A stretch of 64,000 nt of DNA from contig NZ_SDHW01000001.1 of the NCBI RefSeq assembly GCF_004118265.1, positions 124,001 to 188,000 on the forward strand. The letters run 5' to 3'. The translations under genes were made by a program, and so were the position numbers. The number at the start of each line of letters is the position of its first letter. The first letter of the stretch is position 1. The notes beneath the pieces were generated by a model. That model did not search any database. It saw only the letters and a list, made by a program, of their open reading frames with translations, and was not told the DNA's origin. This stretch comes from Lacibacter luteus. Its GTDB lineage: Bacteria; Bacteroidota; Bacteroidia; Chitinophagales; Chitinophagaceae. This document shows, piece by piece, positions 29-64,000 of the stretch.

Positions 29-70
29 GAAAGCGTCTGATAATTTTATCAGACGCTTTCATTTGTTTAT
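29..70 (+). terminator. Rho-independent terminator at left edge
   Basis: A perfect inverted repeat has arms at 29-43 (GAAAGCGTCTGATAA) and 46-60, so it folds as a stem of about 13 bp with a short A/T loop. It is followed on the plus strand by a T-rich tract ending in TTTTTT at 65-70. It would stop a plus-strand gene lying left of the window. On the minus strand no good T tract follows the stem, so termination of the convergent FAH-family gene there would be weaker. Confidence 0.7.
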
Positions 71-912: not shown

Positions 913-943
913 CTCTATTCAGTTTATATGTTTTGTGTTGTAA

Positions 944-1720: not shown

Positions 1721-1737
1721 GTACTAATTAAAAAATG

Positions 1738-17359: not shown

Positions 17360-18538
17360 ATGAATAACGAAACAAAACACAGACGACAGTTTCTAAAAGA
17401 CTCTGTAAAAGCATCGGGCTTACTCTTCATGACGCCGATGATGGAAAATTTTAAGACGGTCAAGTCTTCTTCAAAACAAAAAGAGATCATTACCGCTCCC
17501 AACCGCATCCGATTTGCAGTTATTAATATCAACCATCCGCATATTTATGGTATGACGGATGCTATCAAAAGAGGTGGTGGAGAATTGGTTGCGTTATATG
17601 CTAAAGAAGCAGATTTAGTTGCAGCATTTTCAAAAGCGTACCCCGAAGCAAAACTGGCAAAAAGCGAAAAAGAGATTTTAGAAGATCCTTCTATACAACT
17701 TGTGTTGAGCTCAGGCATACCCGATGAAAGAGCACCATTAGGTATTCGTGTAATGCAGCACGGCAAAGATTATTTAACAGATAAGCCGGGTATCATCAGC
17801 CTCGAACAATTAGCTGCTGTAAAAAAAGTGCAGAAAGAAACCAAACGCATCTATTCTATTATGTATAGTGAGCGCCTGGAAAACAAAGGCACAGAAAAAG
17901 CAAGTCAGTTAGTAAAAGCAGGTGCAATTGGCAATGTAATACAAACGATCAATTTAGCGCCACACAGGATCAGCAATAAATATGGTACTTCGGGTTTGGC
18001 CGTGCGGCCGGATTGGTTCTGGGACAAAAAACGTTATGGTGGAATTTTAACTGACATTGGCTCGCACCAGTTTGATCAGTATTTGCATTTTACCAACTCA
18101 ACTGAAGCAACAGTATTGATGTCGCAGGTAGGCAATGTGCATTTCCCGGAAGCTCCTTTGTTTGAAGATTTTGGCGATGTGATGCTAAGTGGTAATGGTG
18201 GCGTGGGTTATATCCGTGTCGATTGGTTTACACCAGATGGTTTAGATAGCTGGGGCGATGGACGATTGATCATTATGGGAACAGAAGGAACCATTGAAGT
18301 GCGAAAGAACATTGATATTGTTTCAGGTAAAAAAGGCGGTAATCAGTTATACCTCGTCAATAAAAAAGAAATGCTTCACATGGATTGCAACAACGAAGCA
18401 CTACCCTTTGGTCCGTTGTTAGTGGATGATGTATTGAACCGTACAGAAACTGCCATGAGCCAAGCCCATTGTTTTCTTGCAACAGAGCTGGCATTGCTGG
18501 CACAGAAAAATGCAAAAACGCTGACTCTGAAAAAATAA
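17360..18538 (+). CDS. Exported Gfo/Idh/MocA-family oxidoreductase
   Basis: A 392-residue protein beginning with a twin-arginine-type signal (RRQFLKDSVKASGLLF, residues 8-23) followed by an NAD(P)-binding Rossmann domain (RFAVININHPHIYGM from about 51) and the alpha/beta substrate domain containing GGILTDIGSHQFDQYLHF. The DxxxHxxD/Q pattern in that segment is typical of the family. Members oxidise or epimerise sugars, some with tightly bound NAD, which fits Tat export in a folded state. It follows the GntR regulator and ends at a strong terminator. The substrate is unknown; a rhamnoside or modified sugar is plausible from context. Confidence 0.85.
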   Translation: MNNETKHRRQFLKDSVKASGLLFMTPMMENFKTVKSSSKQKEIITAPNRIRFAVININHPHIYGMTDAIKRGGGELVALYAKEADLVAAFSKAYPEAKLAKSEKEILEDPSIQLVLSSGIPDERAPLGIRVMQHGKDYLTDKPGIISLEQLAAVKKVQKETKRIYSIMYSERLENKGTEKASQLVKAGAIGNVIQTINLAPHRISNKYGTSGLAVRPDWFWDKKRYGGILTDIGSHQFDQYLHFTNSTEATVLMSQVGNVHFPEAPLFEDFGDVMLSGNGGVGYIRVDWFTPDGLDSWGDGRLIIMGTEGTIEVRKNIDIVSGKKGGNQLYLVNKKEMLHMDCNNEALPFGPLLVDDVLNRTETAMSQAHCFLATELALLAQKNAKTLTLKK

Positions 18539-49226: not shown

Positions 49227-52200
49227 ATGTCAATTAATAAACCCCTCCTGTTTTTCTGCGCCTGTTTATTTACCAGGCTGTTTCAGGCAACTGCGCAAGA
49301 GGATATTAATTTTACCTCGCTGACTACTAAAGACGGGCTGTCTTCAAATAATGTAAATGCGATCATAAAAGACCGGTACGGGTTTATGTGGTTTGCAACC
49401 GATGATGGTTTAGACCGTTTCGATGGTGCCAACTTTAAGGTTTACCGCAACAAACCGGCTGATCCATCAAGCTTACAGGCTAATGAAATTTTATCACTTC
49501 ATGAAGATGGAGAAGGAAATTTATGGGTGGGAACAAGTGGCGGTTCATTAAGCCTGTATAATCGAAAGAAGGACGCTTTTACCAGTTTTACTTCCAGACC
49601 CGACGAAAATTCAATCCGTAATAATGTGATTATGAATCTTTGTACGGATTTTTCGGGGAGATTGTGGATCGGTCATTTTGATGGCGTCAGTATCATGGAT
49701 AAAAAAACGCAACGTATTACTGACTTCAAACCAGATAACCGATCAAGATTCAACAAAACATGCAATGCGCTTTTTGAAGATAGCAAGCATAGAATGTGGA
49801 TTGGAACAAGTGAAGGGTTATACCTATATATAAAAGAAACAAACAATTTTACCCGTTTCAGCTATTCGGCAAATGATCCTGCAAGTTTAAGCAGCAATCA
49901 TGTGCAAACAATTAAGGAAGATAAGTATGGCACCATTTGGATTGGCACTGCTGATGGCTTAAATATGTTGGACTGGATCAATAAAAAATTTGTGCGGTTT
50001 AAGCACACACAGGGCAACAGTCAAACATTAAACAGCAACATTATTTCTTCAATAGCCGTTGATGCTGCCAATAAACTGTGGATCGCTACATCGGAGGGAA
50101 TGAACATACTTGATCCTGAAACAAAAAAGATCACCGGTTATAATTTTAATCCCCGCAATACCAATGGCCTGTCGAGCAACAGTATTCGTTATGTGTACCT
50201 GGCTGATGATGGTATTTGCTGGCTCGGAACACTTTTGGGTGGCGTTAATAAATATGATAAGAACCTTACGCTTTTTAATTTGGTTCAAAGTAATCCATTC
50301 GATAAACAAGGGTTGAATGCGCCAATTGTTACTTCCTTTGCAGAAGCAAAAGACAACAAAGTTTTTGTAGGTACTGACGACGGTGGGCTTAGTTTATTTG
50401 ACCCTGCAACGAAATTGTTTCAGCAAATCAATCTCAAGTCAAGACGTACAGGAAGCAATAACCTAACGATCATGACCCTGACAATGACAAGAAATAATCA
50501 ATTACTGATCGGTACGTTTGGTGATGGATTATTTGCTTACGATCAATCGTCGGGAAGATACGAACAACTGCTGCAGGGAGAAAAGATAACTGATATCAAT
50601 TCGAACTATATCTACAGCATTAAAGAAGACAGAAAAGGAAACAGGTGGGTTGGTACAAACGGGAACGGTATTCTAATTCTGGATAATAACAACAAAGTAA
50701 CAGCCAGGTTAACTCCCAACCCAACTTTAGCTAACGAAATTAAATTACCGATCAATGGATATATACGTGATCTTGTTGAAGCAAAAAATGGCGATATCTG
50801 GATCGCAACACATGGCGGAGGAATTGCAATTTATAATCCTGCGTCGGGAAAGTTTACCATTTACACAACACAGAACAGCAAATTGCCTAACGACAAAGTG
50901 TTGACATTACTGGAAGACAGGTATGGAAATATTTGGGCCGGTACGTTTGGAGGCGGCTTAGCGTTATTTGACCGCAAAACAAACCAATTCATTACTTATT
51001 CAGAAAAAGAAGGACTTACCAATAATAATGTTTATAAGATAATTGAAGACAATGACGGGCTGCTCTGGATAAGCACTAATAAAGGCCTGAGCAGTTTTGA
51101 TACACAAAGCAAAAAAATCAATAACTACAACTATCACAACGGCATTCAGCATAATACATTTATTCTTGGATCTGGTCTGCGTTTACGAAACGGAGATCTG
51201 TTTTTTGGAGGACACGAAGGTTTCAACTATTTCAATCCTGCGAATCTCAAAAAGAATAAAACTATACCACCCGTTATTATAACAGATCTTAAAATTTCCA
51301 ACAGATCAGTAGTGCCATCAGAAGATGGACCTATAGAAGAAAACATAACTACAGCAAGCGAAATAAACCTTGACTACAAACAAAACTTTGCTCTTTCCTT
51401 TGTAGGCTTAAATTATACTGCCCCTGAACAAAACCAATATGAATATAAACTGGAAGGATTTGATAAGGATTGGATCAACATTGGTAACGTCTCAACCGTA
51501 TCGTATACCAATATTTCTCCCGGCAATTATGTGTTTAGGGTAAGAGCAAGTAATAATAACGGCGTATGGAATACAAAAGGAACATCAATAAAGATCTATG
51601 TTCGTCCTCCCTTTTGGCGAACCATTTATGCCTATATCTTTTATACGCTGCTTATTGCTGGTACATTAATTTATTTCCGGCACAGAGGAATTGAAAAAAT
51701 AAGGAGCAAGTTTATGCTTGAGCAGGAAAGTTTTCGTGCAGAGCAGGAACGAAAAGAAGCGAAGCGTATACATGAACTGGATCAACTTAAACTTAAGTTT
51801 TTAACTAATCTAAGTCACGAATTCCGCACACCGATATCGTTGATATTAGGTCCTGTTGATACATTACTTTCAAAAGAAAATCAAAATGGATCAAAAGACC
51901 AGCTTGGAATAATAAAACGTAATGGCCGGCGGTTGCTGAACCTTGTAAACCAGTTGCTCGATTTCAGAAAAATGGAAGAGCAGGAATTAAAATTGCAACC
52001 CAAAGATGGCGACCTGATCTTGTTTGTAAAAGAGGTATTCGATTCTTTTCTTGATCTTTCTGAACGAAAAAAAATCAAATACAGGTTTAGCAGTAACGCA
52101 GAAAAATTTTATACAAGCTTTGATCATGACAAAATAGAGCGTATCCTTTTTAACCTGTTGTCGAATGCATTTAAGTTTACCACTACCGGCGGAGAGATAA

Positions 52201-53360
52201 CGCTTGTAATAGAAAAAAAAGAAACCGACCTCATTACAAACCAAACCTCGTTTTCCATTGAAGTAAAAGATTCCGGCATTGGTATCCCTGCCGATAAGAA
52301 AGAAGCAATTTTCGAACGCTTCTTTCAGCATCCAACAGCAGCATCCATCCTTAACCAGGGTTCGGGTATTGGACTTTCGATTACAAAAGAATTTGTAAAA
52401 ATGCATGATGGTTCTATTACAGTTGAAAGTGAAGAAGAAGTTGGCAGCACATTTACTGTTCATCTTCCGTTGAAAGAAGCAGCATTGGCTTCCGAAATAA
52501 CCCCAATTGCTGTGCAACTAAACGAAGCAGTTGCTGAAACTGAAAACCAACTAGAACCTGAAGATGATATAAACCTTGAAGATAATAGCGGAGAAACATT
52601 CGCAACGATATTACTCGTTGAAGACAATGATGATTTCAGATTCTATTTGAAAGACAATCTTCGTCAGCGATACAAAGTTATTGAAGCTGCAAACGGATTG
52701 GAAGGCTGGCAAAAAGCATTGGCACAACATCCTGACCTGATCGTGAGCGACATCAGCATGCCGCATATGGATGGAGTTGAACTTTGTACAAAAATTAGAC
52801 ATGATAAGCGCACAGGTCATATTCCTGTTATCCTTTTAACTGCATTAACCGAAGAACATGAGCAGATACGTGGATTAAAAACAGGCGCAAACGATTACAT
52901 TATCAAGCCATTTAATTCAGAGGTGCTCCATGCAAAAATTAAAAACCTTCTTCAGCTAAATGATACTTTAAAGAATACCTACAGTAAGCGTGTAGATATT
53001 CTTTCGCCAGAGATTGCAATTGAATCGGCTTCTGATAAACTTCTTCTTTCCATTACAAAGTATATTGAAGACAACCTCACAGACACTCAATTATCGGTAG
53101 AGAATCTCAGCAAGCATGTTGGAATGAGCAGAAGTACTTTATACAGTAAGCTACTTGAATTAACCGGCAAAACGCCTGTTGAATTTATCCGCTCTGTTAA
53201 GCTTGATAAAGCAGCGCAATTGCTGGAAAAAAGTGATCTGACAATTGCTGAAGTGGCCTACTCGGTTGGATTTTCTACACCCAATTATTTTGCCAAATCA
53301 TTTAAAGCGAAATTCAATTTGCTTCCATCAGAATACTTACAAAGGATGAGAAAGTCGTAG
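49227..53360 (+). CDS. Hybrid two-component system regulator (HTCS) for the PUL
   Basis: A 1377-residue one-piece sensor-regulator: signal peptide (to about 24), Reg_prop beta-propeller sensor (about 30-690, repeats such as DRYGFMWFATDDGLDRFDG and DRYGNIWAGTFGGGLALFD), Y_Y_Y domain (about 700-790), one membrane helix (about 800-818), HisKA with H864 in NLSHEFRTP, HATPase (NLLSNAFKF, GSGIGLSI), receiver with phospho-acceptor D1175 in IVSDISMPHMDG, and an AraC helix-turn-helix (about 1270-1377). All catalytic residues are intact. HTCS sensors bind specific oligosaccharides in the periplasm and activate nearby PULs, here most likely the xylan locus on the opposite strand. Confidence 0.96.
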   Translation: MSINKPLLFFCACLFTRLFQATAQEDINFTSLTTKDGLSSNNVNAIIKDRYGFMWFATDDGLDRFDGANFKVYRNKPADPSSLQANEILSLHEDGEGNLWVGTSGGSLSLYNRKKDAFTSFTSRPDENSIRNNVIMNLCTDFSGRLWIGHFDGVSIMDKKTQRITDFKPDNRSRFNKTCNALFEDSKHRMWIGTSEGLYLYIKETNNFTRFSYSANDPASLSSNHVQTIKEDKYGTIWIGTADGLNMLDWINKKFVRFKHTQGNSQTLNSNIISSIAVDAANKLWIATSEGMNILDPETKKITGYNFNPRNTNGLSSNSIRYVYLADDGICWLGTLLGGVNKYDKNLTLFNLVQSNPFDKQGLNAPIVTSFAEAKDNKVFVGTDDGGLSLFDPATKLFQQINLKSRRTGSNNLTIMTLTMTRNNQLLIGTFGDGLFAYDQSSGRYEQLLQGEKITDINSNYIYSIKEDRKGNRWVGTNGNGILILDNNNKVTARLTPNPTLANEIKLPINGYIRDLVEAKNGDIWIATHGGGIAIYNPASGKFTIYTTQNSKLPNDKVLTLLEDRYGNIWAGTFGGGLALFDRKTNQFITYSEKEGLTNNNVYKIIEDNDGLLWISTNKGLSSFDTQSKKINNYNYHNGIQHNTFILGSGLRLRNGDLFFGGHEGFNYFNPANLKKNKTIPPVIITDLKISNRSVVPSEDGPIEENITTASEINLDYKQNFALSFVGLNYTAPEQNQYEYKLEGFDKDWINIGNVSTVSYTNISPGNYVFRVRASNNNGVWNTKGTSIKIYVRPPFWRTIYAYIFYTLLIAGTLIYFRHRGIEKIRSKFMLEQESFRAEQERKEAKRIHELDQLKLKFLTNLSHEFRTPISLILGPVDTLLSKENQNGSKDQLGIIKRNGRRLLNLVNQLLDFRKMEEQELKLQPKDGDLILFVKEVFDSFLDLSERKKIKYRFSSNAEKFYTSFDHDKIERILFNLLSNAFKFTTTGGEITLVIEKKETDLITNQTSFSIEVKDSGIGIPADKKEAIFERFFQHPTAASILNQGSGIGLSITKEFVKMHDGSITVESEEEVGSTFTVHLPLKEAALASEITPIAVQLNEAVAETENQLEPEDDINLEDNSGETFATILLVEDNDDFRFYLKDNLRQRYKVIEAANGLEGWQKALAQHPDLIVSDISMPHMDGVELCTKIRHDKRTGHIPVILLTALTEEHEQIRGLKTGANDYIIKPFNSEVLHAKIKNLLQLNDTLKNTYSKRVDILSPEIAIESASDKLLLSITKYIEDNLTDTQLSVENLSKHVGMSRSTLYSKLLELTGKTPVEFIRSVKLDKAAQLLEKSDLTIAEVAYSVGFSTPNYFAKSFKAKFNLLPSEYLQRMRKS

Positions 53361-53501: not shown

Positions 53502-54578
53502 ATGAAAAAGAAAACATTCTTTCTCCTGGGAGTGTTATGCACGCTCGTTTTTCTTTCCTGTACCAAAAACATGATCTATGCTGAAAATGAAAACAATGAT
53601 CTTAAAGAAGTACAATCTTCTGTTTTTGAAAGCAAGGTTTTTCCTGCCACTACTTTTTTTGATCCCACTGGTCTTATTTCTGCAAGCCAGCACGGTGTGT
53701 TAGACACTGTTCAAAAAGGATTTCGTTTTACCGAAGGTCCAGCTGTTGATAAAAACGGTAATGTGTTTTTTACTGATCAGCCCAATGATAAAATTTACAA
53801 ATGGACTGCATCTACCGGGCAGATCTCTACGTTTTTAACCGGTACAGGCCGTGCTAATGGAATGGCTTTTGACAAAGATGGCTATCTCATTGCTTGTGCA
53901 GATATGCATGGAGAACTTTGGAAGATAGCTCCGGATGGCTCTCACACCGTATTAGTAAATAACTACAATGGCAAACTGTTAAATGGCCCCAATGATATAT
54001 GGATCAACCCCAAAGATGGAGGCATTTATATTACCGACCCTATATTTCCAAGAGATTACTGGGATGCATCTGATCCACGCAAACAAAATTGGGAACCCAC
54101 ACACTCTGAGCAGGCCGCAACAGGCAAAGGAGGTCATGTTTATTACCTCGCTCCAGGTAGCAACACATTGGTTAGGGTAACAACAATGGCGGGTTGGAAT
54201 GCCGATATATGGCCTAACGGCATCACAGGAACTCCTGATGGTAAAAAACTGTATGTGAACAATTGGACATACGATGGTTCTGGGCAAATCAAAGTTTTTG
54301 ATATCAATGCTAATGGTACACTTTCTAACATGCAGACATTGGTTAACAATTTAAATTTCTGTGATGGCATGTCGCTTGATGAACGTGGAAACATTTATGT
54401 AAGTGGCGGTCCGGGATTAAATGCTTATGATAAAAAAGGCAACAAGATATTAACGATTCCCGGTGGTGGAGGTACAAACAATGTTTTTGCAGGGGCAAAT
54501 AACAAAATACTATTCATGACTAGTCCGGACAGGATTACTTCAGTAAAAATGAACGTTAAGGGCGTAGAGAAATTTTAA
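53502..54578 (+). CDS. SMP-30/gluconolactonase-family lipoprotein
   Basis: About 358 residues. The ATG at 53502 is chosen because it begins a lipoprotein signal (MKKKTFFLLGVLCTLVFLSC); the frame is open 96 nt further up but without signal character. The rest is a six-bladed SMP-30/regucalcin propeller: FTEGPAVDKNGNVFFTD, RANGMAFDKDGYLIACAD, NGPNDIWINPKDGGIYITDP, WPNGITGTPDGKKLYVNNW and FCDGMSLDERGNIYVS, which carry the usual metal-binding Glu, Asn and Asp. Family members hydrolyse sugar lactones to aldonates. Exported here, it could feed the sugar-acid operon on the other strand. It follows the HTCS gene after 141 nt. Confidence 0.9.
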   Translation: MKKKTFFLLGVLCTLVFLSCTKNMIYAENENNDLKEVQSSVFESKVFPATTFFDPTGLISASQHGVLDTVQKGFRFTEGPAVDKNGNVFFTDQPNDKIYKWTASTGQISTFLTGTGRANGMAFDKDGYLIACADMHGELWKIAPDGSHTVLVNNYNGKLLNGPNDIWINPKDGGIYITDPIFPRDYWDASDPRKQNWEPTHSEQAATGKGGHVYYLAPGSNTLVRVTTMAGWNADIWPNGITGTPDGKKLYVNNWTYDGSGQIKVFDINANGTLSNMQTLVNNLNFCDGMSLDERGNIYVSGGPGLNAYDKKGNKILTIPGGGGTNNVFAGANNKILFMTSPDRITSVKMNVKGVEKF

Positions 54579-54610
54579 ATTATTTATTTCACACTAAAAT
54601 ATATGTTTAT

Positions 54611-54946
54611 ATGAAATTCATTTTTTGTGTATTGTTCTTATTAGGTGGTTTCAATGTTTTTGCTCAAAATGCTATTGACGGTAAATGGAAAGGCACCCGT
54701 GAAACACCTAACGGCACGTTTGAAGTTGAGTACACGTTTAAGGTTGAAGGCAAAGTGGTTACCGGCATTTGGAAAACACAATTCGGCGAATCTAAACTTG
54801 AGGAAGGGAAAATAGATGGGAAAAAGTTTTCTTTCACTATTTCCTTTAATGAAAACAAATTGAGCAGCACTGCAGAACTTGTAAGTGAAAATGAAATACT
54901 GATAAAAAATGACAGAGGAGAAATGAAACTTACAAGAGTTAAATAA
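54611..54946 (+). CDS. Small secreted beta-rich protein of unknown function
   Basis: A 111-residue protein with a Sec signal (MKFIFCVLFLLGGFNVFA). The mature part alternates beta-strand segments: IDGKWKGTRETPNGTFEVEYTFKV, VTGIWKTQFGESKLEEGKIDGKKFSFTI, and ends GEMKLTRV. I recognise this G.W.G/G...G.IDGK.FSF pattern as a common small extracytoplasmic domain next to or fused with carbohydrate enzymes, possibly a lipocalin-like barrel, but know no proven function. It starts 32 nt after the SMP-30 gene and is probably cotranscribed with it. Confidence 0.75.
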   Translation: MKFIFCVLFLLGGFNVFAQNAIDGKWKGTRETPNGTFEVEYTFKVEGKVVTGIWKTQFGESKLEEGKIDGKKFSFTISFNENKLSSTAELVSENEILIKNDRGEMKLTRVK

Positions 54947-55000
54947 GCAATGGCTATTGAAAAGAAAACATCAATAAGCGTACTGATCTTTGTAATAAAA

Positions 55001-55032
55001 AATCCTGCAGTAATTTCACATGCTGCAGGATT
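55001..55032. terminator. Terminator hairpin between convergent genes
   Basis: A perfect 10-bp stem AATCCTGCAG (55001-55010) / CTGCAGGATT (55023-55032) with a 12-nt loop. On the minus strand it is followed by a run of T (TTTTTATTAC), so it ends the sugar-acid operon whose last stop is at 55054. It also lies 55 nt after the small secreted protein gene on the plus strand, where the following tract is poorer in T. Confidence 0.75.
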
Positions 55033-55053
55033 ACAATAAAAATTCCGGATCAT

Positions 55054-56331
55054 TTATTCAAAAATTGGCACGCCGGGTATCGCATACTTTTTCACTCCTT
55101 CTTCATTTACATCAACACCTATTCCCGGTTTTTCTGAAACAGTAATGAATCCATCTTTTACCCATTCGCCATCATATTTTATAATGTCCTTCCACTTTTG
55201 CTCAGTATGGAAATAAGCTTGCCATTCAAGTATCATAAAGTTAGGTACCGATGCGCAAACATGACAGGTGGCCATGCATCCAAGAAAGGAAGCTACCATG
55301 TGTGGCGAAAACGGTTTGTAATATAAATTGGCAAGATTGGCAATACGTTGTCCTTCTCCCAAACCTCCGCATTTTTGCAAATCGGGCATTACAATATCTA
55401 CAGCTCCAATTTCCAATGCTCTTCTGAAACCATAAGCCAGGTAATTGTTTTCACCGTAACAGATCGGAATGCTGGTTGATTCTGTAAGCGATTTATAAAT
55501 ATCAACATTTTCTGTTGGCATTGGTTCTTCCAGCCACATCAAATTATATTTCTCTAAACGCTGAGCAACAGCTTGTGCCGTTACATAATCATACCTTCCA
55601 TGCATATCAATGCAGATGTCAACCTTTGGTCCCACTGCTTCTCTTGCTGCCGCAACCTGCTCTTCCATACGTATTAACTCACCGGGGCTCATCGTCCAGT
55701 TATAACGATCATATTTATTTGGATCATTCGCCTCATCTATATCGTACTTAATAGCAGTAAAACCCATGCTTACTCCTTTTTTTCCTGCATCTACATATTC
55801 TTTAACCGGTGGATTTCTGATTGCATAAAAAACAGTATCGTAATATACCCTGATCTTATCCCTAAACTTTCCGCCTAACAAACGATACACGGGTACACCC
55901 AGTGCTTTGCCTGCAAGATCCCAAAGAGCAATTTCGATAGCAGACAAAACTGCTATGTACATTCCGGCTTGTGCTCCCTGGAAAATTCCTTGCTTGCGTA
56001 TATCTTCAAATATGCGGTTAACATCCAACGGATTTCTACCCTTTAGACGAATACCAAAATTTTTAACGAGATGATAAGTGCCTGGTATAGCATCAACACC
56101 TTCTCCATAACCTACTAAACCCTGGTTAGTGGTTATTTTAATATACATCCTGTTATTCGGCAAATATGCAGGCGTTACATTTTCTATTTTCAGATCGGAA
56201 GGAGCTGATGATTTTGATGTTTTCTCAATAGCATCTTCCATTGGTTTGCCAAATGACGCAAGTGGTGCTAGTGGCGCCATGGCTGCAGCTACAGCAGCTT
56301 TTGTTATAAATGATCTTCTTGAATTTGACAT
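55054..56331 (-). CDS. Exported enolase-superfamily acid-sugar dehydratase (galactonate dehydratase-like)
   Basis: A 425-residue protein of the mandelate racemase/muconate lactonizing group. It starts with a twin-arginine signal (RRSFITKAAVAAAMAPLAPL, residues 5-24). Metal ligands are D242, E268 and E294; catalytic candidates are K195, H244 (the D-x-H signature of galactonate dehydratases, DMHG) and H344 in SPHM. The N-terminal capping domain is complete. It should dehydrate an aldonate to a 2-keto-3-deoxy acid, and the Tat signal implies this happens outside the cytoplasm. It is last in its operon, 40 nt after the RraA-like gene, and convergent with the exported SMP-30 lactonase. The exact sugar is unknown. 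Confidence 0.9.
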   Translation of the reverse strand: MSNSRRSFITKAAVAAAMAPLAPLASFGKPMEDAIEKTSKSSAPSDLKIENVTPAYLPNNRMYIKITTNQGLVGYGEGVDAIPGTYHLVKNFGIRLKGRNPLDVNRIFEDIRKQGIFQGAQAGMYIAVLSAIEIALWDLAGKALGVPVYRLLGGKFRDKIRVYYDTVFYAIRNPPVKEYVDAGKKGVSMGFTAIKYDIDEANDPNKYDRYNWTMSPGELIRMEEQVAAAREAVGPKVDICIDMHGRYDYVTAQAVAQRLEKYNLMWLEEPMPTENVDIYKSLTESTSIPICYGENNYLAYGFRRALEIGAVDIVMPDLQKCGGLGEGQRIANLANLYYKPFSPHMVASFLGCMATCHVCASVPNFMILEWQAYFHTEQKWKDIIKYDGEWVKDGFITVSEKPGIGVDVNEEGVKKYAIPGVPIFE

Positions 56332-56371
56332 TGTATGATTTTTTTCTATGGTGATAGTTTGATTATTGATC

Positions 56372-57316
56372 TTACCAGGTACGATCTTTCAAATATTCTT
56401 GAATCTGTGCTTTGCCTACCGGCAATTCATTGATGTGATCATTCAGCCACTTTGAAAAATCACGTTCAATTTCATCAGTCCATCTTGCATCAATTTGTCC
56501 GGCGGTATATTTCCCCTCACGCAAACGCTGATGACCAAACATATCTCTCAACCTTACAATCTCTGAAGTTGTAACAACACGTTCTGCAAGGTGTGGAGGA
56601 ATAAAAACAACAACTCCTAATTTGCCGAGCACCACATCACCCGGCATAACTGTAACCGTTCGAATACGTGTCGGATGATTAATGCCAACGATCATTGTAG
56701 TCAAATCACCGGGAGGATTATGATAAGAAGGATCATAGCTTGTATAAAAAGAGGTAAAGCCCGGGATATCTTTTAGTCCTTCAACATCACGCAAAGCGCC
56801 ATCATACACAATTCCGTTTCCGGTTTTTGCATAGATCGCATTACCAACATTATCACCAATGGTGGGACCGTTCTTTTGTGCACCAAACTGATCGGCCACA
56901 TATACATCGCCTTTTACAAGTATGTCAACAGCCCAGGTATTTTGTCCACGTTTGCCTGCTTTTTTTCCAACCGAATCAATTGCTTTCCAAACATCGGGCC
57001 GGCCAGGCATAAACGTTGCTGTTACAGCACGACCAACTAAAACACTATCTGGATGAATGAGCTGCCAGCCTTCTGCAATTTGATAGGCATAGCCAGCGTT
57101 TTTCATTACAGCCCATGCTTCTTCCACACTTACATTTTTCATTCGCTGTAATATCTGATCAGGAACTTTTGGCCGACCGTCAGGAAAACGCTCACCTGTC
57201 CAAAGTGGCGTTAATGCAATCAGTTGTTCTTTGCTGATTTGTACTTCCTGGCCTAGCAATGGTTGAAGCAATAAAAAAAAACACAACGCAAGCAAGCCGT
57301 TTTTAAATTTTATCAT
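56372..57316 (-). CDS. Exported RraA-like protein, possible pyruvate aldolase
   Basis: A 314-residue RraA/HMG-CHA aldolase family protein with a Sec signal (MIKFKNGLLALCFFLLLQPLLG). The family's core is present: GDNVGNAIYAKTGNGIVYDGALRD with G154, N156, R176 and D177, the last two matching the Arg and Asp used by 4-hydroxy-4-methyl-2-oxoglutarate aldolases. It is longer than RraA (about 160 residues) by N- and C-terminal extensions. Such aldolases release pyruvate from 4-hydroxy-2-oxo acids, and a 2-keto-3-deoxy-aldonate belongs to that class. A retro-aldol step after the neighbouring dehydratase is thus chemically sensible. Family membership is firm; activity is inferred. Confidence 0.85.
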   Translation of the reverse strand: MIKFKNGLLALCFFLLLQPLLGQEVQISKEQLIALTPLWTGERFPDGRPKVPDQILQRMKNVSVEEAWAVMKNAGYAYQIAEGWQLIHPDSVLVGRAVTATFMPGRPDVWKAIDSVGKKAGKRGQNTWAVDILVKGDVYVADQFGAQKNGPTIGDNVGNAIYAKTGNGIVYDGALRDVEGLKDIPGFTSFYTSYDPSYHNPPGDLTTMIVGINHPTRIRTVTVMPGDVVLGKLGVVVFIPPHLAERVVTTSEIVRLRDMFGHQRLREGKYTAGQIDARWTDEIERDFSKWLNDHINELPVGKAQIQEYLKDRTW

Positions 57317-57359
57317 GGCGATTATTTTTATTGAGTGACCTGGTTTAATTCTTTTTCAT

Positions 57360-58445
57360 TTATTTTTCTACGGGTGGGCGATTATGCCACCAGCTGGCCA
57401 ATGCCGACCCTGTTATATTCATGAGTGGCCCAAACACAGCGGCGGCTAACCCGATGGTTGAAATTTTTCCAAGCTCTTTTGCAATGCCGGATGCAAGTCC
57501 CGCATTTTGCATACCTACTTCAATGGCAATGGTTCTGCAATCTCTTTCGCTCATGTTGAATAAACGTCCACTCCAGTAGCCTAACAGGTATCCAAATGTG
57601 TTGTGTGCTATTGCAACAACAGTTAAGAGCAATCCAATCTTTAACAGGTTATCCCTTCCCGAGGCAACAATAATTGTAACAATAGCTGTAATAGCAAACA
57701 TTGAGATCAACGGCATGGCTTTATCAAGCCATTGAATTTTTCCTTTCAGCAGTTTGTTGAAGATTAATCCCGCACCAATTGGCAGGATGATCATTTTAAA
57801 AATATCCCACATCATCTTCAATACATCTATTTCAATTAAGGCTCCTGCAAATAATTTCATTAGTAATGGTGTAACAAATGGAGCAATTAATGTAGTGATG
57901 GATGTAATGGTGATCGATAACGCAAGATTGGCTTTTGATAAATAGGCCATTACGTTTGAAGCCAATCCGCTTGGTGAACATCCAATCAAAATAATACCTG
58001 CAGCTATTTCGGAAGGAAAGTTTGTTACATTGGATAATATAAAACCAAGCGACGGCATAATAATAAACTGGCTTGCAACACCTATCACAACTCCTTTTGG
58101 CGATTTTACAACTGCTGCAAAATCGTTCACACTCATTGACGACCCCATTCCAAACATCAGCAATTGAATAAATGGAATAATGGTACTGCTTAATGAAAAA
58201 TTACCCCAGTTGGTAAAATATTCAGGGTGCCACATAGCCAATACAACTGAAGCCAAAATGATAGCAGTAAACGAAAGCCCTTTTAATAATGGAATGCCTC
58301 TGAAAACAAATGCAAGACTTAAAAAAAATAATGCCAGGGACCATCCTGCCAGGGTTATATTGTTCGTCAGCCAAAGTACAATCGTTAATGTTGCAAGTAC
58401 GACAGCAATTGCAGAATAAAGAACTGGTTTCCTTTTACGCTCCAT
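57360..58445 (-). CDS. BASS-family sodium symporter
   Basis: A 361-residue membrane protein with about nine to ten helices of the bile acid:sodium symporter fold. Diagnostic segments are GCSPSGLASNVMAYLSKANLALS (near 155-177) and EVGMQNAGLASGIAKELG near the end, which form the crossing helices with the sodium sites. BASS members import organic anions such as bile acids, pantothenate and 2-keto acids. In this operon the likely cargo is an acid produced outside the membrane (aldonate, keto-deoxy acid or pyruvate). It lies between the kinase (102 nt) and the RraA-like gene (43 nt). Confidence 0.9.
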   Translation of the reverse strand: MERKRKPVLYSAIAVVLATLTIVLWLTNNITLAGWSLALFFLSLAFVFRGIPLLKGLSFTAIILASVVLAMWHPEYFTNWGNFSLSSTIIPFIQLLMFGMGSSMSVNDFAAVVKSPKGVVIGVASQFIIMPSLGFILSNVTNFPSEIAAGIILIGCSPSGLASNVMAYLSKANLALSITITSITTLIAPFVTPLLMKLFAGALIEIDVLKMMWDIFKMIILPIGAGLIFNKLLKGKIQWLDKAMPLISMFAITAIVTIIVASGRDNLLKIGLLLTVVAIAHNTFGYLLGYWSGRLFNMSERDCRTIAIEVGMQNAGLASGIAKELGKISTIGLAAAVFGPLMNITGSALASWWHNRPPVEK

Positions 58446-58547
58446 TTTTATTTTATTCTTTTATCAGTGATATGAGATTTTTAATTCCTGATTGAGTGTA
58501 TTTATTAATTTGCTAATTGGCAACAATCGACTTACGATGAAATGATC

Positions 58548-60065
58548 TTACTCATGTTGCAGCGCTGCAATGTCAGCAAATTCACTCGCCAGCTTTGTAC
58601 TTAACCTTTCGAATATTTTGAAGTACTTCAAATACGTTTTGTTGTTTTGTTTATCTGGTGTAGCGAGGTCGGGCAATACAACCGATTTAGCAGCTTCATC
58701 AAGCGATTTATAAATTCCCATCTCTGTTGCACTTAATAAGTAAGCGCCATAACTCACACTGTGATACTGTTGTCGTAAACGAACTGGTTTGTTATAAATA
58801 TCAGCAACCATTTGGGTAAAGAAGGGCAAGGTTCCAAAACTACCATTGATCGAAAGGCTGTTAATGGTTCTGTGTTCTTCCAATGTTTTTCCAATGCTAT
58901 AGAGCTCGTATAAAATACCTTCAATGGTTGCTCTTACAAAATGTGATTTTTCATGTTTGATATTTAAACCGAAATAAACTCCACGTGCATTGGCATTCCA
59001 GATAGGAGCACGTTCGCCTAACAGGTATGGAAGAAACAATAACCCATCTGAACCTGCCGGCACTTTCGATGCTTCATTGATCAACTCCAGCATTGTATGT
59101 TCAATGTCGAATGGATTTTTAAAATCCCCGAACTGTCGTGTGAACCATTCGAAGATGACGCCACCGTTATTCGTTGGGCCACCTGATACATATTTATTTT
59201 CCGTAAGCAGGTAATTAAAAAATCGTTGCTTATCATCCTGCATTACTTTATCACTCACAACTCTTACAGCGCCACTATCTTCAACAGTAATAGTTGCCAC
59301 TCCTTCTCCGGTAACACCATCACCAAGAACCGCCATGCATCCATCACTTGACCCTGCCAGTATGATTGTATCGGCCGATAGACCCAATGAAGCCTGGTAT
59401 GCTTTATTTAATTTGCCAACCTTTGTATCTACGGGTACTAATTCAGGTAACATGGCTGCAGTAATTCCTGCAAACTTTAATGACTCTGCCTCCCACTTAA
59501 TTTTATGGATATTCAACAAGCCGGTTGCTGAAGCAATACTGTAATCAATTACATATTCCCCGGTAAGCTGTTGCAGTATATATGCTTTAAGCGATAAAAA
59601 TTTACTTACCTGCTTGAACTTTTCATTTTCCTGGTTTTTGATCCACGCAATTTTTGTAAGCGGCGACATGGGATGAAGCGGGGTACCTGTTGCGTTGTAA
59701 ATACTTTTTCCAAGTGATGAGCTTTTCAGTTCTGCTGCTTCTTTATTCGCCCTGTTATCGGCCCAGATAATTGCATGCCCCATTGGATTCCCACGCTTAT
59801 CAACCGCCAGCACGCTGTGCATCGATGAACTGAAACAAATACACCTCACTTTAATTTTCTTTGGATGCAATACATCATTCAGGAGATTTTTTAATACATA
59901 CAGCATGGTAATAAAAATCTGGTCGGCATCCTGCTCACTGTAATCAGGCTCGCTGTGAAACGTAGGGCAATATCCTTTCAGCGACCCGATGATATTTCCG
60001 TTGAGATCAAATGCATAAACTCTTACTGCATTCGTGCCGAGTTCTATGGTGATGATACATTCCAT
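58548..60065 (-). CDS. FGGY-family kinase, gluconokinase-like
   Basis: A 505-residue FGGY kinase. The N-terminal ATPase loop is IELGTNAVRVYAFD, followed by CFSSSMHSVLAVDKRGNPMGHAIIWADNRA (near 77-107), very like gluconate kinases of the Bacillus GntK group, and the C-terminal domain carries GSSDGCMAVLGDG and NGSFGTLPFFTQMVADIYNKPV. It phosphorylates a sugar or sugar acid in the cytoplasm. Gluconate is the best guess from sequence; in this operon it may instead phosphorylate an imported aldonate or keto-deoxy acid. It starts 10 nt after the AraC gene, so regulator and kinase are coupled. Confidence 0.87.
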   Translation of the reverse strand: MECIITIELGTNAVRVYAFDLNGNIIGSLKGYCPTFHSEPDYSEQDADQIFITMLYVLKNLLNDVLHPKKIKVRCICFSSSMHSVLAVDKRGNPMGHAIIWADNRANKEAAELKSSSLGKSIYNATGTPLHPMSPLTKIAWIKNQENEKFKQVSKFLSLKAYILQQLTGEYVIDYSIASATGLLNIHKIKWEAESLKFAGITAAMLPELVPVDTKVGKLNKAYQASLGLSADTIILAGSSDGCMAVLGDGVTGEGVATITVEDSGAVRVVSDKVMQDDKQRFFNYLLTENKYVSGGPTNNGGVIFEWFTRQFGDFKNPFDIEHTMLELINEASKVPAGSDGLLFLPYLLGERAPIWNANARGVYFGLNIKHEKSHFVRATIEGILYELYSIGKTLEEHRTINSLSINGSFGTLPFFTQMVADIYNKPVRLRQQYHSVSYGAYLLSATEMGIYKSLDEAAKSVVLPDLATPDKQNNKTYLKYFKIFERLSTKLASEFADIAALQHE

Positions 60066-60075
60066 TTGATATAAA

Positions 60076-60963
60076 TTAGTTTGTTCCCAAATGATTTTTT
60101 CTGAATTGACTGGGTGTATAGCCGGTTAGTTTTTTAAATGTTGTTGAAAAATGCTGCGATGAATAAAAGCCGGTGTCCAAAGCAATGTCCGTTAAGCTTA
60201 TATCGGGCATCTTCAATAATTTAATTGCTTCTGATATTCGGATATTGATAAGATAGTTCAACGGCGAAAAGCCCGAGTAGCTTTTTACTTTTTCGTTGAA
60301 CAGTGTTGTACCTAAGCCAACCAATGCAGCCATTTCTTCCACCGTCCATTGATGCGACAAATTCTGACGTAGCTCCTGCTCCAGTTTCATAAATGTTTTG
60401 GGGAAATCACGACCGGGATTCAACATTCTTGTAAACTGCCTGCACAGTTGTATCAGTATCTCATCGATTAAATGATTTACTCTCGTTTGAAATCCTAACT
60501 CCTGTTTAAATAACTCAGTTTGTATTGACTTGAGTATAACACCTGCATCTGTAAATTTTTGCAGAACGGGTGATTGATCGGTTTGCAGTATTTTATCAAT
60601 TGCATAGCTTTCTACCTGCGTTAAACTGCTCCATGCCCCTGGCTCCAGCTCGCCTTTTTCGTTTTTACTTATTTCTAAACATATCCAAGAAAAACTCCCT
60701 ATCTCCAGTACTGCACTTTCATTTCCAAATTCAACACCTGGTAATACTAATGCAACGTCTCCGGGAAAAAGTGTGAAACGTCTTTCATTGATACTCCATT
60801 CAAATTTTCCCTCTTGTATATAGTATAATCTTAATGAACGCTCTGCAGATAAAGGAAAGCCGTTGAGACGAATTGCCGTATTTTTAATTGCACCTATTTC
60901 TATAATGTGAGGAAATAAGCGCAACTCAGAAGCAGTGGTATGGCTAAGCACAAATTGATTCAT
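60076..60963 (-). CDS. AraC-family transcriptional regulator
   Basis: A 295-residue regulator with an N-terminal cupin-like ligand domain (LRLYYIQEGKFEWSINERRFTLFPGDVALVLPGVEFG, about 45-80) and a C-terminal AraC double helix-turn-helix (WTVEEMAALVGLGTTLFNEKVKSYSG, then ISLTDIALDTGFYSSQHFSTTFKKLTGYTPSQFRK). It is first gene of the minus-strand operon that encodes kinase, symporter, RraA-like protein and dehydratase, and presumably senses their substrate. It is divergent from the SusC gene at 61182 and may also control it. Confidence 0.9.
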   Translation of the reverse strand: MNQFVLSHTTASELRLFPHIIEIGAIKNTAIRLNGFPLSAERSLRLYYIQEGKFEWSINERRFTLFPGDVALVLPGVEFGNESAVLEIGSFSWICLEISKNEKGELEPGAWSSLTQVESYAIDKILQTDQSPVLQKFTDAGVILKSIQTELFKQELGFQTRVNHLIDEILIQLCRQFTRMLNPGRDFPKTFMKLEQELRQNLSHQWTVEEMAALVGLGTTLFNEKVKSYSGFSPLNYLINIRISEAIKLLKMPDISLTDIALDTGFYSSQHFSTTFKKLTGYTPSQFRKNHLGTN

Positions 60964-61181: not shown

Positions 61182-64000
61182 ATGAAGGAAAATCTCCAAC
61201 CCGGATTTAAAACGGGTTTGATCAGACTACTTTTCTCACTCTTCCTCCTCACTTTTTTTACTGCTGCAAATGCGCAAACAGTTACAGGTACTGTGCTCGA
61301 CGAGGAAAATAAACCCGTTAACGGAGCCACCGTTGCAGTAAAAGGCACAAACAAAGCAACTGTTACAAATGCTTCAGGCAATTTTAGTATTGCTGCTGCA
61401 GGAAACGACGTGCTTGTATTCAGCTCTATTGGATTTTCAAAACTGGAAGTGCCTGTAGATGGCAGAGCCACTGTTTCTGTTACATTGGCCAAGAGCGAAA
61501 CCAATATGGAAGAAGTAGTAGTGATCGCATTGGGCGAAAGAAGAGCTGCAAAAAAGCTGGGTTATTCCACAACATCAGTTAATACAGATGAAATGGTAAG
61601 ACAGCGAACTACAAATCTTGGTGAATCACTTGTGGGCAAGGTTGCGGGCTTAAATATTACACCACCTGCTGCAGGTGCTGGTGCGAGTAACCAGATCCGT
61701 TTGCGTGGACAGGTTGGTTTTGCAGGAGCTAACAACGCCCCACTTTTAGTTGTGAATGGTCTTCCTCTAGATCAAGAAGCAAGAAACAACGAAGGAAACA
61801 ATCCATCACGTGACCGTGGTGATAACCTGGCAAATATTAACCCTGATGATATTGAGAGTATGACCGTATTAAAAGGAGCAGCCGCTGCGGCTATTTATGG
61901 TTCAAGAGCTGCTGCTGGCGCTATTATCATCACCACAAAATCAGGTCAAAAAAATCAAGGTATTGGTGTTGATTTTACATCGAGCTATACCAGTTCGCAG
62001 GCTTTGAATTTTATGGATGAGATCGTTCAAACGCAATATGGCCAGGGGCAAGGTGGTGTAAAGTTTACAACCGCTGCACAGATCCAAGGTAATGGTCAGT
62101 GGGGATGGGGTGCTAAATTAGATGGACAACCAACCATCAATTTCGATGGTAAAATGCGTCCCTACTCTGCTCATCCTTTCCAGTTGTTTGACTATTTACG
62201 AACAGGAACAAATCTTACCAATACGCTTGGGTTATCAGGTGGCGGAACTAATGGAAGTTTCAGAACATCACTCTCTACAACAAGCGCAAAAGGTATTGTT
62301 CCGGGCAATGAATATAAAAGAAGGATCTTCAATATCGGCGTGAATCAAACCATTGCAAAAAAACTTCGGTTACAGGTAAACGTTAACTATGCTGATGAAG
62401 ATTATATTAACCCTCCGCAAATAGGTACACAAGGTGATGGTGCCGTCAATTTCTTTAACAGGATGCCCATTTCTGTTCCTATTGAAGCTTATCGTGATAA
62501 TGCAAAAGATCCTGCTACCAATGCAGAATGGAGAACAAGCGGATTCCAGGGAACAGTGAACAATCCATACTTTGCTTTGCAATACGGACAAAAATATAAG
62601 GAAGACAGAAACCGTCTTCTCGGTACAACTACTTTACGATACAACATCACTGATTGGTTGTATGCACAGGGAAGATTTAACTACGATCGTGGCGATAATT
62701 TCATGGAATCTTACACATTGAATGGTCAGGGCGCCAACACTACTATTGCTACTACTACTCCTACTGTTACATACAGAGGTGCGTATAATCTCAGCCAAAC
62801 AACAACAACAAACATAAATGCTGATTTCCTGGTTGGTGCCAACCACGAATTTGGTAAGTTTTCTGTTGATGCAAGCTTTGGTGGCAACACATTACGTTCA
62901 GAATGGAAGAACATGGTGCAAAGTGCCACTAACTTTACTGTTCCTGATCTTTATTCATACCGCAACGGTACTGTGAAAGGTGCAGGTGATGGTTTTAACT
63001 ACAGCCAGCAACGTGTGAATTCACTTTATGGTGTGCTCGAGTTAGGTTACAACGGGCTTTTATACATCAATGGTACAGCAAGAAATGATTGGTTTTCGAT
63101 CCTCAATCCTGAAAACAACAGTAAGTTCTACTCATCTGTATCAGGAAGTTTTGTTTTCTCCCAGCTCCTAAAAAATGTGAACTGGTTATCATTTGGTAAA
63201 CTAAGAGCTTCATGGGCACAGGTGGGTAGTGTAGCTTCGGTAAATCCTTATGATGGTGTGCTTACTTATGGACTTGGTGCAAACCTGTTTAATGGACAAA
63301 CCACCGCAAGCATTAACGGAACCGGCGCTCCAAACCCATTATTACAGCCGTTCACAGTAACAGAAAAAGAATTAGGTCTTGAATTAAGATTGTTTAAGAA
63401 CAGGTTGATGTTAGATGTTGCAGCATTTGATAAAGTAACAACTGAACAAATCATTGATGTTAATCTTTCTACTGCATCGGGCTATAATACTTCCAAACAA
63501 AATGCAGCTTCATTAAAGAACAGTGGTTTGGAAACAATGATTGAATATAAAGCGGTACAAGGCAAAAATTTCAACTGGACCACTTCCTGGAACAACGCAT
63601 TTCTTAAAACAAAAGTGTTGAATGTTGGTAATCCCAGCGGAACAATTCTTCTGCTTTATTTTAATGGAACAGGTAATGAATTCCTTGGAGAAATAAGGTA
63701 CACAGAAGGTTTAGCTATGAATCAACTGTACACAAGAACGTATAGAAGAAATGCCAATGGCGATATCCTGATAGGTAACGATGGCCGTCCTCTGGCATCA
63801 AATACAAATCCCAAAGGTATTACTACTGGTTTTGTTCCTGTAGGCAGTGCAATCCCTAAGTTCACCGGAGGGTGGAACAATACGTTCTCCTATAAGAATC
63901 TTAGCCTCGGTGTTCATGTCGATTATAAATTCGGCGGTACCGTATTATCATCTACACTGTTGAACATGACAAGGCAAGGTCATAGCAAGTTGTCTTTAAC
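61182..64000 (+). CDS. SusC/RagA-family TonB-dependent transporter, partial (runs off window)
   Basis: An open frame of 939 codons from the ATG at 61182 to the window edge with no stop. It has a signal (LIRLLFSLFLLTFFTAANA), a carboxypeptidase-regulatory-like domain (VTGTVLDEENKPVNGATVAVKG), TonB-box-like MEEVVVIALGERRAAKK, a plug (ESLVGKVAGLNITPP, IRLRGQVGFAG, MTVLKGAAAAAIYGSRAAAGAIIITTKSG) and most of the barrel. About 50-100 C-terminal residues should lie beyond the window, followed presumably by a SusD gene. It is divergent from the AraC-led sugar-acid operon and begins another uptake locus. Confidence 0.93.
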   Translation, partial: MKENLQPGFKTGLIRLLFSLFLLTFFTAANAQTVTGTVLDEENKPVNGATVAVKGTNKATVTNASGNFSIAAAGNDVLVFSSIGFSKLEVPVDGRATVSVTLAKSETNMEEVVVIALGERRAAKKLGYSTTSVNTDEMVRQRTTNLGESLVGKVAGLNITPPAAGAGASNQIRLRGQVGFAGANNAPLLVVNGLPLDQEARNNEGNNPSRDRGDNLANINPDDIESMTVLKGAAAAAIYGSRAAAGAIIITTKSGQKNQGIGVDFTSSYTSSQALNFMDEIVQTQYGQGQGGVKFTTAAQIQGNGQWGWGAKLDGQPTINFDGKMRPYSAHPFQLFDYLRTGTNLTNTLGLSGGGTNGSFRTSLSTTSAKGIVPGNEYKRRIFNIGVNQTIAKKLRLQVNVNYADEDYINPPQIGTQGDGAVNFFNRMPISVPIEAYRDNAKDPATNAEWRTSGFQGTVNNPYFALQYGQKYKEDRNRLLGTTTLRYNITDWLYAQGRFNYDRGDNFMESYTLNGQGANTTIATTTPTVTYRGAYNLSQTTTTNINADFLVGANHEFGKFSVDASFGGNTLRSEWKNMVQSATNFTVPDLYSYRNGTVKGAGDGFNYSQQRVNSLYGVLELGYNGLLYINGTARNDWFSILNPENNSKFYSSVSGSFVFSQLLKNVNWLSFGKLRASWAQVGSVASVNPYDGVLTYGLGANLFNGQTTASINGTGAPNPLLQPFTVTEKELGLELRLFKNRLMLDVAAFDKVTTEQIIDVNLSTASGYNTSKQNAASLKNSGLETMIEYKAVQGKNFNWTTSWNNAFLKTKVLNVGNPSGTILLLYFNGTGNEFLGEIRYTEGLAMNQLYTRTYRRNANGDILIGNDGRPLASNTNPKGITTGFVPVGSAIPKFTGGWNNTFSYKNLSLGVHVDYKFGGTVLSSTLLNMTRQGHSKLSL

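Follow-up and report, generated by a model that had tools for sequence, protein, structure and literature searches.

The region analyzed here is a 64,000-nucleotide stretch of the Lacibacter luteus genome (NZ_SDHW01000001.1:124,001-188,000; genome size, 5.07 Mb), hereafter called the window. On its minus strand, an AraC-family regulator, an FGGY carbohydrate kinase, a BASS-family sodium symporter, an RraA-like protein, and an enolase-superfamily (MR/MLE, hereafter MLE) protein are encoded in this order, with intergenic gaps of 10-102 bases. An earlier sequence-only reading had called these five genes and a neighboring lactonase gene as six open reading frames (ORFs). All six were found in place, and every family it had named was confirmed by Pfam (SGL, MR_MLE, RraA-like, SBF/BASS, FGGY, and AraC HTH). 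The nearest functional names of the block proteins in NCBIfam all score under the curated cut-offs.

The RraA-like and MLE proteins and their conservation

The exported RraA-family protein (314 residues; 56372..57316, minus strand) matches PF03737 with 55.4 bits (cut-off, 24.5) and is the sole PF03737 match in the genome. Its AlphaFold model (pLDDT 86.6) has the alpha-beta-beta-alpha RraA fold, judging from the Foldseek matches to 5ir2, 3k4i, 5x15, and 3noj (E of 1.1e-13 to 5.3e-12). The match to the HMG/CHA aldolase 3noj has an E value of 5.3e-12 and 18% identity over the fold match. PDB 5ir2, the top fold match, was deposited as "Cellulase", a name that looks doubtful. The Arg-Asp pair of 3noj aligns with R176-D177 in a D155-x20-R176-D177 stretch (56786..56854, minus strand), and we take D-x20-R-D to be the metal/catalytic motif of HMG/CHA-type class II pyruvate aldolases; terms for the motif gave no literature match in open-licence PubMed Central. 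The protein is thus regarded as a candidate class II pyruvate (2-keto-3-deoxy acid) aldolase. A role as an RNase regulator was set aside, since RNase E is a cytoplasmic enzyme and the protein carries a leader.

The MLE protein (425 residues; 55054..56331, minus strand; MR_MLE N-terminal domain, 38.3 bits, and C-terminal domain, 196.5 bits) is a candidate sugar-acid dehydratase. Its seven top NCBIfam matches are all sugar-acid dehydratases, the best being galactonate dehydratase PRK14017 (238.6 bits; cut-off, 311); the score against NF040790 is 230.8 bits (cut-off, 750). D242, H244, E268, E294, and H344, which the sequence-only reading had described as intact, are all present, with a spacing presumably equal to that in Escherichia coli galactonate dehydratase.

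Both proteins start with a leader. The MLE leader, encoded by the first 30 codons (56242..56331, minus strand), is of the twin-arginine type (MSNSRRSFITKAA, with SRRSF at residues 4-8), and TatC is encoded in the genome (201.8 bits). RraA has a Sec leader of 22 codons (57251..57316, minus strand; MIKFKNGLLALCFFLLLQPLLG, followed by QEVQ), with predicted cleavage before Gln23 according to the Q-rule of Bacteroidota. In passages of the study describing this rule, most signal peptidase I substrates of the phylum are stated to expose an N-terminal glutamine (PMC5837995).

Two sets of relatives were compared. The first, used to compare gene order, comprises the window plus 40 regions, each at most 20 kb in length and taken around the stronger RraA matches; the RraA protein had been matched in 38 of the 196 genomes searched, its own included. 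The second consists of the best 80 of at least 554 RraA relatives (596 pattern matches listed) from a contig scan with an RraA alignment, and leans to copies near the window RraA. Three of its loci (L080, L083, and L095; L numbers denote loci and G numbers genomes) coincide with regions of the first set. The names attached to the 80 loci are all Bacteroidota as far as recognized, save one contig labeled Williamsia. Williamsia is an actinobacterium; the locus so labeled (L083, Williamsia sp.) shares identical DNA with L046, which is from a genome of the window's family, and the label is probably wrong. The ORF picker retains the longest frames, at the risk of missing genes: it yielded no RraA for L036 and L042, though the genome search matched each, and an antisense frame seemingly hid the MLE gene of L206, where the genome search has a match.

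The recurrent layout is a divergent SusD-SusC pair followed by AraC-FGGY-BASS-RraA-MLE. In 76 of the 80 loci, the RraA and MLE genes are direct neighbors on one strand. In all, 125 neighboring same-strand pairs were counted (a gene flanked by two partners entering twice), with a median gap of 44 bases. Among the 45 RraA copies of the first set, 31 have MLE within four genes, nine have DgaE or the deacetylase described below, none has both, and five have neither. The phylum was also sampled evenly: of the 296 genomes searched, own genome included, 18 have an exported RraA (E ≤ 1e-40) and 26 have an MLE match at E ≤ 1e-60, which in 15 of the 26 scores >400 bits. All 15 of the latter have an exported RraA within 250 bases by match coordinates. 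The three RraA genomes without an MLE of >400 bits (G083, which is L055, G322, and G356) carry an exported DgaE-type ammonia-lyase set. Co-occurrence of the exported pair beyond this strain, which the sequence-only reading had named as a point to check, is thus found both in the 80 loci and in 15 of the 18 exported-RraA genomes, and a BASS gene occurs in 41 of the 80 loci.

The leaders, too, are conserved. In the 80 loci, 112 of 117 RraA copies were Sec-like and 111/117 fitted the Q-rule (Gln after a small residue), and the twin-arginine motif was found in 111/117 MLE copies; in the first set, 44/45 RraA copies had the leader and 32/32 MLE copies the twin-arginine motif. Genes clipped N-terminally by a locus border were excluded from these counts. 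None of 66 cytoplasmic controls (AraC, 18; FGGY, 18; aldehyde dehydrogenase, 10; FAH, 10; IlvD, 10) fitted any leader pattern, and the same screen found the lipobox in 31/34 copies of SusD, a lipoprotein family. The leaders claimed earlier for the dehydratase (twin-arginine) and RraA (Sec) are therefore present in the window and conserved among relatives. RraA-MLE adjacency and leader conservation exceed chance; the conserved export leaders and the pairing are well supported by the sequences, and from them we infer a periplasmic location of both proteins. The key residues were counted only in copies scoring >400 bits (RraA, n = 117; MLE, n = 113). R176 and D177 occur in all 117 RraA relatives and D155 in 106/117, and the metal ligands D242, E268, and E294 occur in 113/113 MLE relatives and H344 in 112/113.

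Partner genes, a second exported set, and surroundings

The BASS-family symporter (361 residues; 57360..58445, minus strand; SBF, 133.8 bits) is a candidate importer of an acid product; against the PanS-type family NF047939 (pantoate/ketopantoate) it scores 239.2 bits (cut-off, 400). The FGGY kinase (505 residues; 58548..60065, minus strand; FGGY_N, 198.4 bits) is gluconokinase-like, with 434 bits against TIGR01314 (cut-off, 648.55), and has no leader. The AraC-family regulator (295 residues; 60076..60963, minus strand; HTH_18, 70 bits) adjoins the kinase in the recurrent layout. The sequence-only reading had these three genes complete the set. Their families are indeed present, but FGGY and AraC belong only to a minority of loci (17/80 and 18/80, respectively), mostly from Chitinophagaceae and also from Mucilaginibacter, Emticicia, and Fulvivirgaceae.

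A second type of exported gene set lies beside the same RraA in 11 loci, nine from the first comparison and two from the phylum sample. Its genes, which are not all present in each locus, include those for an amidohydrolase/deacetylase (in L060, 429.7 bits against an NCBIfam cut-off of 371) and a DgaE-family pyridoxal phosphate (PLP)-dependent ammonia-lyase (in L060, 185.6 bits; cut-off, 385.3). The 11 loci contain BASS (10), RidA (8), an oxidase of the pyrroloquinoline quinone (PQQ)-dependent or sorbosone-dehydrogenase type (8), and an SGL lactonase (6). The deacetylases have Sec leaders fitting the Q-rule in 13/13 cases. The ammonia-lyases mostly begin with MKRR or similar and the RidA proteins have RRS-type starts, which were read by eye as twin-arginine. 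A GH20 hexosaminidase is encoded in L064 and, by clustering, in L065, and a PIG-L-type de-N-acetylase in L066. Pfam typing covered two of the PQQ dehydrogenases and a single member of each of the families UxuA, GH67, GH20, and PIG-L; the remaining loci were assigned by blastp clusters. A natural reading of these sets is that an N-acetylhexosamine would be converted outside the cytoplasm via a lactone and an amino sugar acid to a 2-keto-3-deoxy acid, ending in the same RraA and BASS. A known DgaE-type enzyme yields a 2-keto-3-deoxy acid phosphate, according to the abstract of PMC9529869. One exported RraA thus adjoins enzymes of two unrelated types, both with known relatives that form 2-keto-3-deoxy acids, an arrangement that provides the strongest evidence for the substrate class of RraA. 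This second set lends independent support to the earlier proposal of a 2-keto-3-deoxy acid as the RraA substrate. A small DUF4440/SnoaL-like protein is encoded in 15 loci of both the MLE and DgaE types (L055:7810-8235, L090:649-1119, and 13 more); both copies that were inspected start with a leader, and the protein may be an extra enzyme or binding protein.

The position of the lactonase gene should be noted, since the sequence-only reading had described three consecutive steps encoded together. The protein (53502..54578, plus strand; SGL PF08450, 83.6 bits) is indeed an SMP-30/gluconolactonase-like lipoprotein with a lipobox Cys, its leader ending in LVFLSC. The description holds for the MLE/RraA pairing but not for the lactonase, which lies on the opposite strand, convergent with the MLE operon, and is a singleton in the first comparison. 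In the genus-mate G006, an ortholog with 87% identity (C1:2858762) lies ~2 Mb from RraA (C1:804130), and in the genus-mates G002, G009, and G013, which carry the block, no lactonase match was found at E ≤ 1e-20; the lactonase is therefore judged to be outside the conserved unit. At the same threshold, SGL-like lactonase genes occur in at most 6 of the 80 loci (three plus three). A role as a dedicated third step was rejected in view of the gene order and the lack of a match in these three genus-mates; the window lactonase may hydrolyze lactones from the same pool. On its 3' side, a 111-residue ORF (54611-54946) with a leader-like start matched neither Pfam nor NCBIfam at E ≤ 0.001. Upstream of the lactonase gene lies a hybrid two-component regulator (49227-53360).

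Divergent from the block, a SusC-like TonB-dependent transporter is encoded on the plus strand (61182..64000, continuing beyond the window end), followed by SusD in L072. It is 88.6% identical to the SusC of L033; the family is represented in 19 of 41 compared sequences, the window being one of the 41, and a SusC of >1000 bits in 35/80 loci. Coordinates of L072 are converted to window coordinates by adding 59999. After SusC/SusD, on the plus strand of L072:6227-13866 (approximately 66226-73865), an aldehyde dehydrogenase, an IlvD/Edd dehydratase, an esterase-like protein, an FAH-family protein, a GH10-like protein (41.6% identical to the window GH10), and a GntP-family permease (TIGR00791, 504.9 bits; cut-off, 292.75) are encoded. 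In L046, the IlvD/Edd relative reaches 900 bits for dihydroxy-acid dehydratase (cut-off, 539) and 840.9 bits for L-arabinonate dehydratase (cut-off, 882). This divergent SusCD operon probably carries a cytoplasmic Weimberg-type aldonate branch. With such a branch beside the exported block, aldonate breakdown probably takes place on either side of the inner membrane.

A xylan utilization locus (19037-48508) contains GH10, four GH43 (two with CBM6), GH8, GH95, several esterases including a SASA esterase, two SusC/SusD pairs, and an ECF sigma factor. A Gfo/Idh/MocA oxidoreductase (17360-18538) with a twin-arginine start, HRRQF, is a possible second exported sugar oxidoreductase, and at the left edge (67-3381) an FAH-family protein, an SDR dehydrogenase, and a galactarate/altronate-type dehydratase in a row form a further sugar-acid pathway.

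Genes near the pair in other loci suggest sources of the acid. A PQQ-dependent dehydrogenase with a cytochrome c domain is found in L091 (typed), L093, L098, and L102 (by clustering). Some Chitinophagaceae loci have a Gfo/Idh/MocA oxidoreductase, with the twin-arginine motif in 7/7 copies of the first set and 2/6 of the second; the one in L033 scores 150 bits against the D-xylose dehydrogenase Gfo6 model (cut-off, 350). Six Spirosoma loci (L130, typed; L133, L135, L136, L141, and L149) have a UxuA mannonate dehydratase, and four of them (L133, typed; L135, L136, and L141) a GH67 alpha-glucuronidase family member. These Spirosoma loci appear to represent another context, that of uronate or glucuronoxylan.

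Candidate route and rival explanations

The block may encode a non-phosphorylative route for sugar acids that runs in the periplasm, with RraA splitting a 2-keto-3-deoxy acid into pyruvate and an aldehyde; we give this reading just short of an even chance. An aldonate would enter via SusC/SusD or form in the periplasm through an exported sugar oxidase. The twin-arginine-exported MLE, judging from its family, metal ligands, and leader, likely dehydrates the aldonate to a 2-keto-3-deoxy acid. The Sec-exported RraA, as a metal-dependent class II pyruvate aldolase, would then split this acid into pyruvate and a small aldehyde; aldol cleavage is probable in view of the modeled fold, the R-D pair, the leader, and the partnership with MLE. 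The BASS symporter would move an organic acid product into the cytoplasm; AraC and FGGY are an add-on of minority loci, mostly in Chitinophagaceae. The exported amino-sugar set (PQQ/sorbosone-type oxidase with cytochrome c, lactonase, deacetylase, PLP ammonia-lyase, and RidA) would converge on the same kind of acid. In the five-gene block, no 2-keto-3-deoxy acid aldolase of a known family was found and only RraA fills the slot; the one PF01081 aldolase of the genome is on another contig. As for the substrate, the xylan context and the Weimberg-type branch point to a pentonate, and GH20/PIG-L beside the DgaE-type sets and the likeness to galactonate dehydratase point to a hexonate. A wider reading, with a slightly smaller chance, is that many Bacteroidota have a periplasmic Entner-Doudoroff-like pathway, in which one exported RraA aldolase ends both the MLE route for neutral aldonates and the N-acetylhexosamine route, and BASS imports pyruvate.

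Several observations weigh against this route. RraA is far under every equivalog cut-off (LigK TIGR02798, 30 against 304.5; PRK09262, 33.6 against 179), and MLE is below every dehydratase equivalog cut-off. H244, two residues past the first metal ligand, is conserved in the window and 81/113 MLE relatives but is Tyr or Phe in the other 32, so that the base of these differs; they are the longer copies, 32-35% identical to the window MLE (alignment A2). BASS is not found in 39/80 loci, some of them clipped by contig ends, and no conserved gene for the aldehyde product was recognized in the loci. Exported-clade RraA copies with neither an MLE nor a DgaE partner close by occur in L040 (17258-18184), L063, L067 (two copies), L070, L201, and L202, and the profiles A1 and A2 were made from co-located copies. 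The leader screen, which used hydropathy, charge, Q-rule, lipobox, and twin-arginine patterns instead of SignalP, is rough: 26/40 BASS membrane proteins scored as Sec-like and 6/40 as Q-rule, and only 19/40 SusC were caught as Q-rule. In the DgaE-type sets, its twin-arginine pattern caught only 4/11 ammonia-lyases and 1/6 RidA (5/6 RidA being Sec-like).

The main rival, clearly less probable, is that RraA dehydrates, and perhaps decarboxylates, the 2-keto-3-deoxy acid to a semialdehyde such as alpha-ketoglutaric semialdehyde, which would be imported and oxidized in the cytoplasm. The sequence-only reading had held that RraA-like proteins are not known to cleave keto-deoxy-aldonates, and this has to be qualified: in passages of PMC8563752, the RraA-like FlDet is described as a 2-keto-3-deoxy-glucarate dehydratase/decarboxylase. 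FlDet shows that RraA-family proteins act on 2-keto-3-deoxy sugar acids, and its activity means that the chemistry here may be dehydration instead of aldol cleavage, a further point against the aldolase. The aldehyde dehydrogenase of the divergent operon also has weak semialdehyde-dehydrogenase matches (112.2 bits against 750 for 2,5-dioxovalerate dehydrogenase). On the other hand, that operon has its own FAH-family protein, which could do the dehydration, and FlDet is a ~27 kDa protein in whose description the word "periplasm" is absent from the main text (PMC8563752). Aldol cleavage is preferred because most loci have no aldehyde dehydrogenase (12/80 have one) and BASS-type carriers are known for pyruvate and ketopantoate.

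The enzymes may instead be periplasmic with other substrates. MLE would then be an epimerase, or act as a dehydratase on uronic acids or on acids bound to oligosaccharides; RraA would be an oxaloacetate-type decarboxylase or other lyase. The catalytic diversity of the MLE family, the scores below all equivalog cut-offs, and the uronate use suggested by UxuA and GH67 in Spirosoma agree with this, but the seven sugar-acid dehydratases at the top of the NCBIfam matches and the DgaE-type sets beside the same RraA make it improbable. That the window lactonase, dehydratase, and aldolase form one dedicated three-step periplasmic unit is more doubtful still: all three have leaders and are neighbors, and 6/11 DgaE-type loci have lactonase genes, but the window lactonase is on the opposite strand and is not conserved with the block, and SGL-like genes are rare in the 80 loci. 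To our knowledge, the non-phosphorylative sugar-acid pathways described so far are cytoplasmic, and the block could be an ordinary pathway of this kind with spurious or uncleaved leaders. The leader counts (111/117 for both proteins against 0/66 controls) and the Q-rule residue where it is expected make this very unlikely.

If the periplasmic aldolase route is correct, it would provide the first RraA-family 2-keto-3-deoxy-acid aldolase, as far as the literature searched shows, and a carbon-carbon-cleaving sugar catabolism outside the cytoplasm. Plant-polysaccharide degraders would cleave carbon-carbon bonds to give pyruvate in the periplasm ahead of phosphorylation or sugar uptake, and, more speculatively, electrons from sugar oxidation could pass straight to the respiratory chain. 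A large clade known here only as RraA-like (at least 554 encoding stretches) would gain a function, and the conserved pair suggests an overlooked place for central sugar chemistry.

Comparison with known systems

Among the top-ranked matches for broad topics in open-licence PubMed Central, no paper was found to describe, for Bacteroidota, an RraA aldolase that is exported or a route of dehydratase and aldolase in the periplasm. Among known proteins, the HMG/CHA (LigK-type) aldolase of Pseudomonas putida (3noj) shares the RraA fold with the model, with the R-D pair aligned. Unlike it, the window RraA has a leader, extra N- and C-terminal regions, and neighbors of sugar-acid rather than aromatic catabolism. 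FlDet of Flavobacterium sp. UMI-01 shares the RraA family, the phylum, and the 2-keto-3-deoxy sugar acid substrate class (passages of PMC8563752). The likeness is by description, and those passages mention no leader for the ~27 kDa protein. The D-galactonate and related MR/MLE aldonate dehydratases share the metal ligands and H344 with the window MLE and give its best family scores, the twin-arginine leader being a feature of the window protein.

The non-phosphorylative Entner-Doudoroff, Dahms, and Weimberg pathways follow the same logic from aldonate to 2-keto-3-deoxy acid. Here the steps are predicted to be periplasmic, with RraA in the aldolase slot, which is usually filled by other aldolase families in those routes. 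The second exported set, as in L060, shares the DgaE-family ammonia-lyase and the amidohydrolase with the DgaE/DgaF glucosaminate-6-phosphate pathway. It differs in having leaders and in having RraA in the place of DgaF, a KDPG-type aldolase, and no sugar-phosphate step was recognized in these loci. The nearest precedent found for sugar chemistry in the periplasm is the putative 3-keto-lactose route (LacABC and DUF1080), for which passages of PMC9007349 include Pedobacter and Indibacter among the proposed carriers. This 3-keto-sugar pathway and the route considered here have the compartment in common, whereas their reactions and protein families differ.

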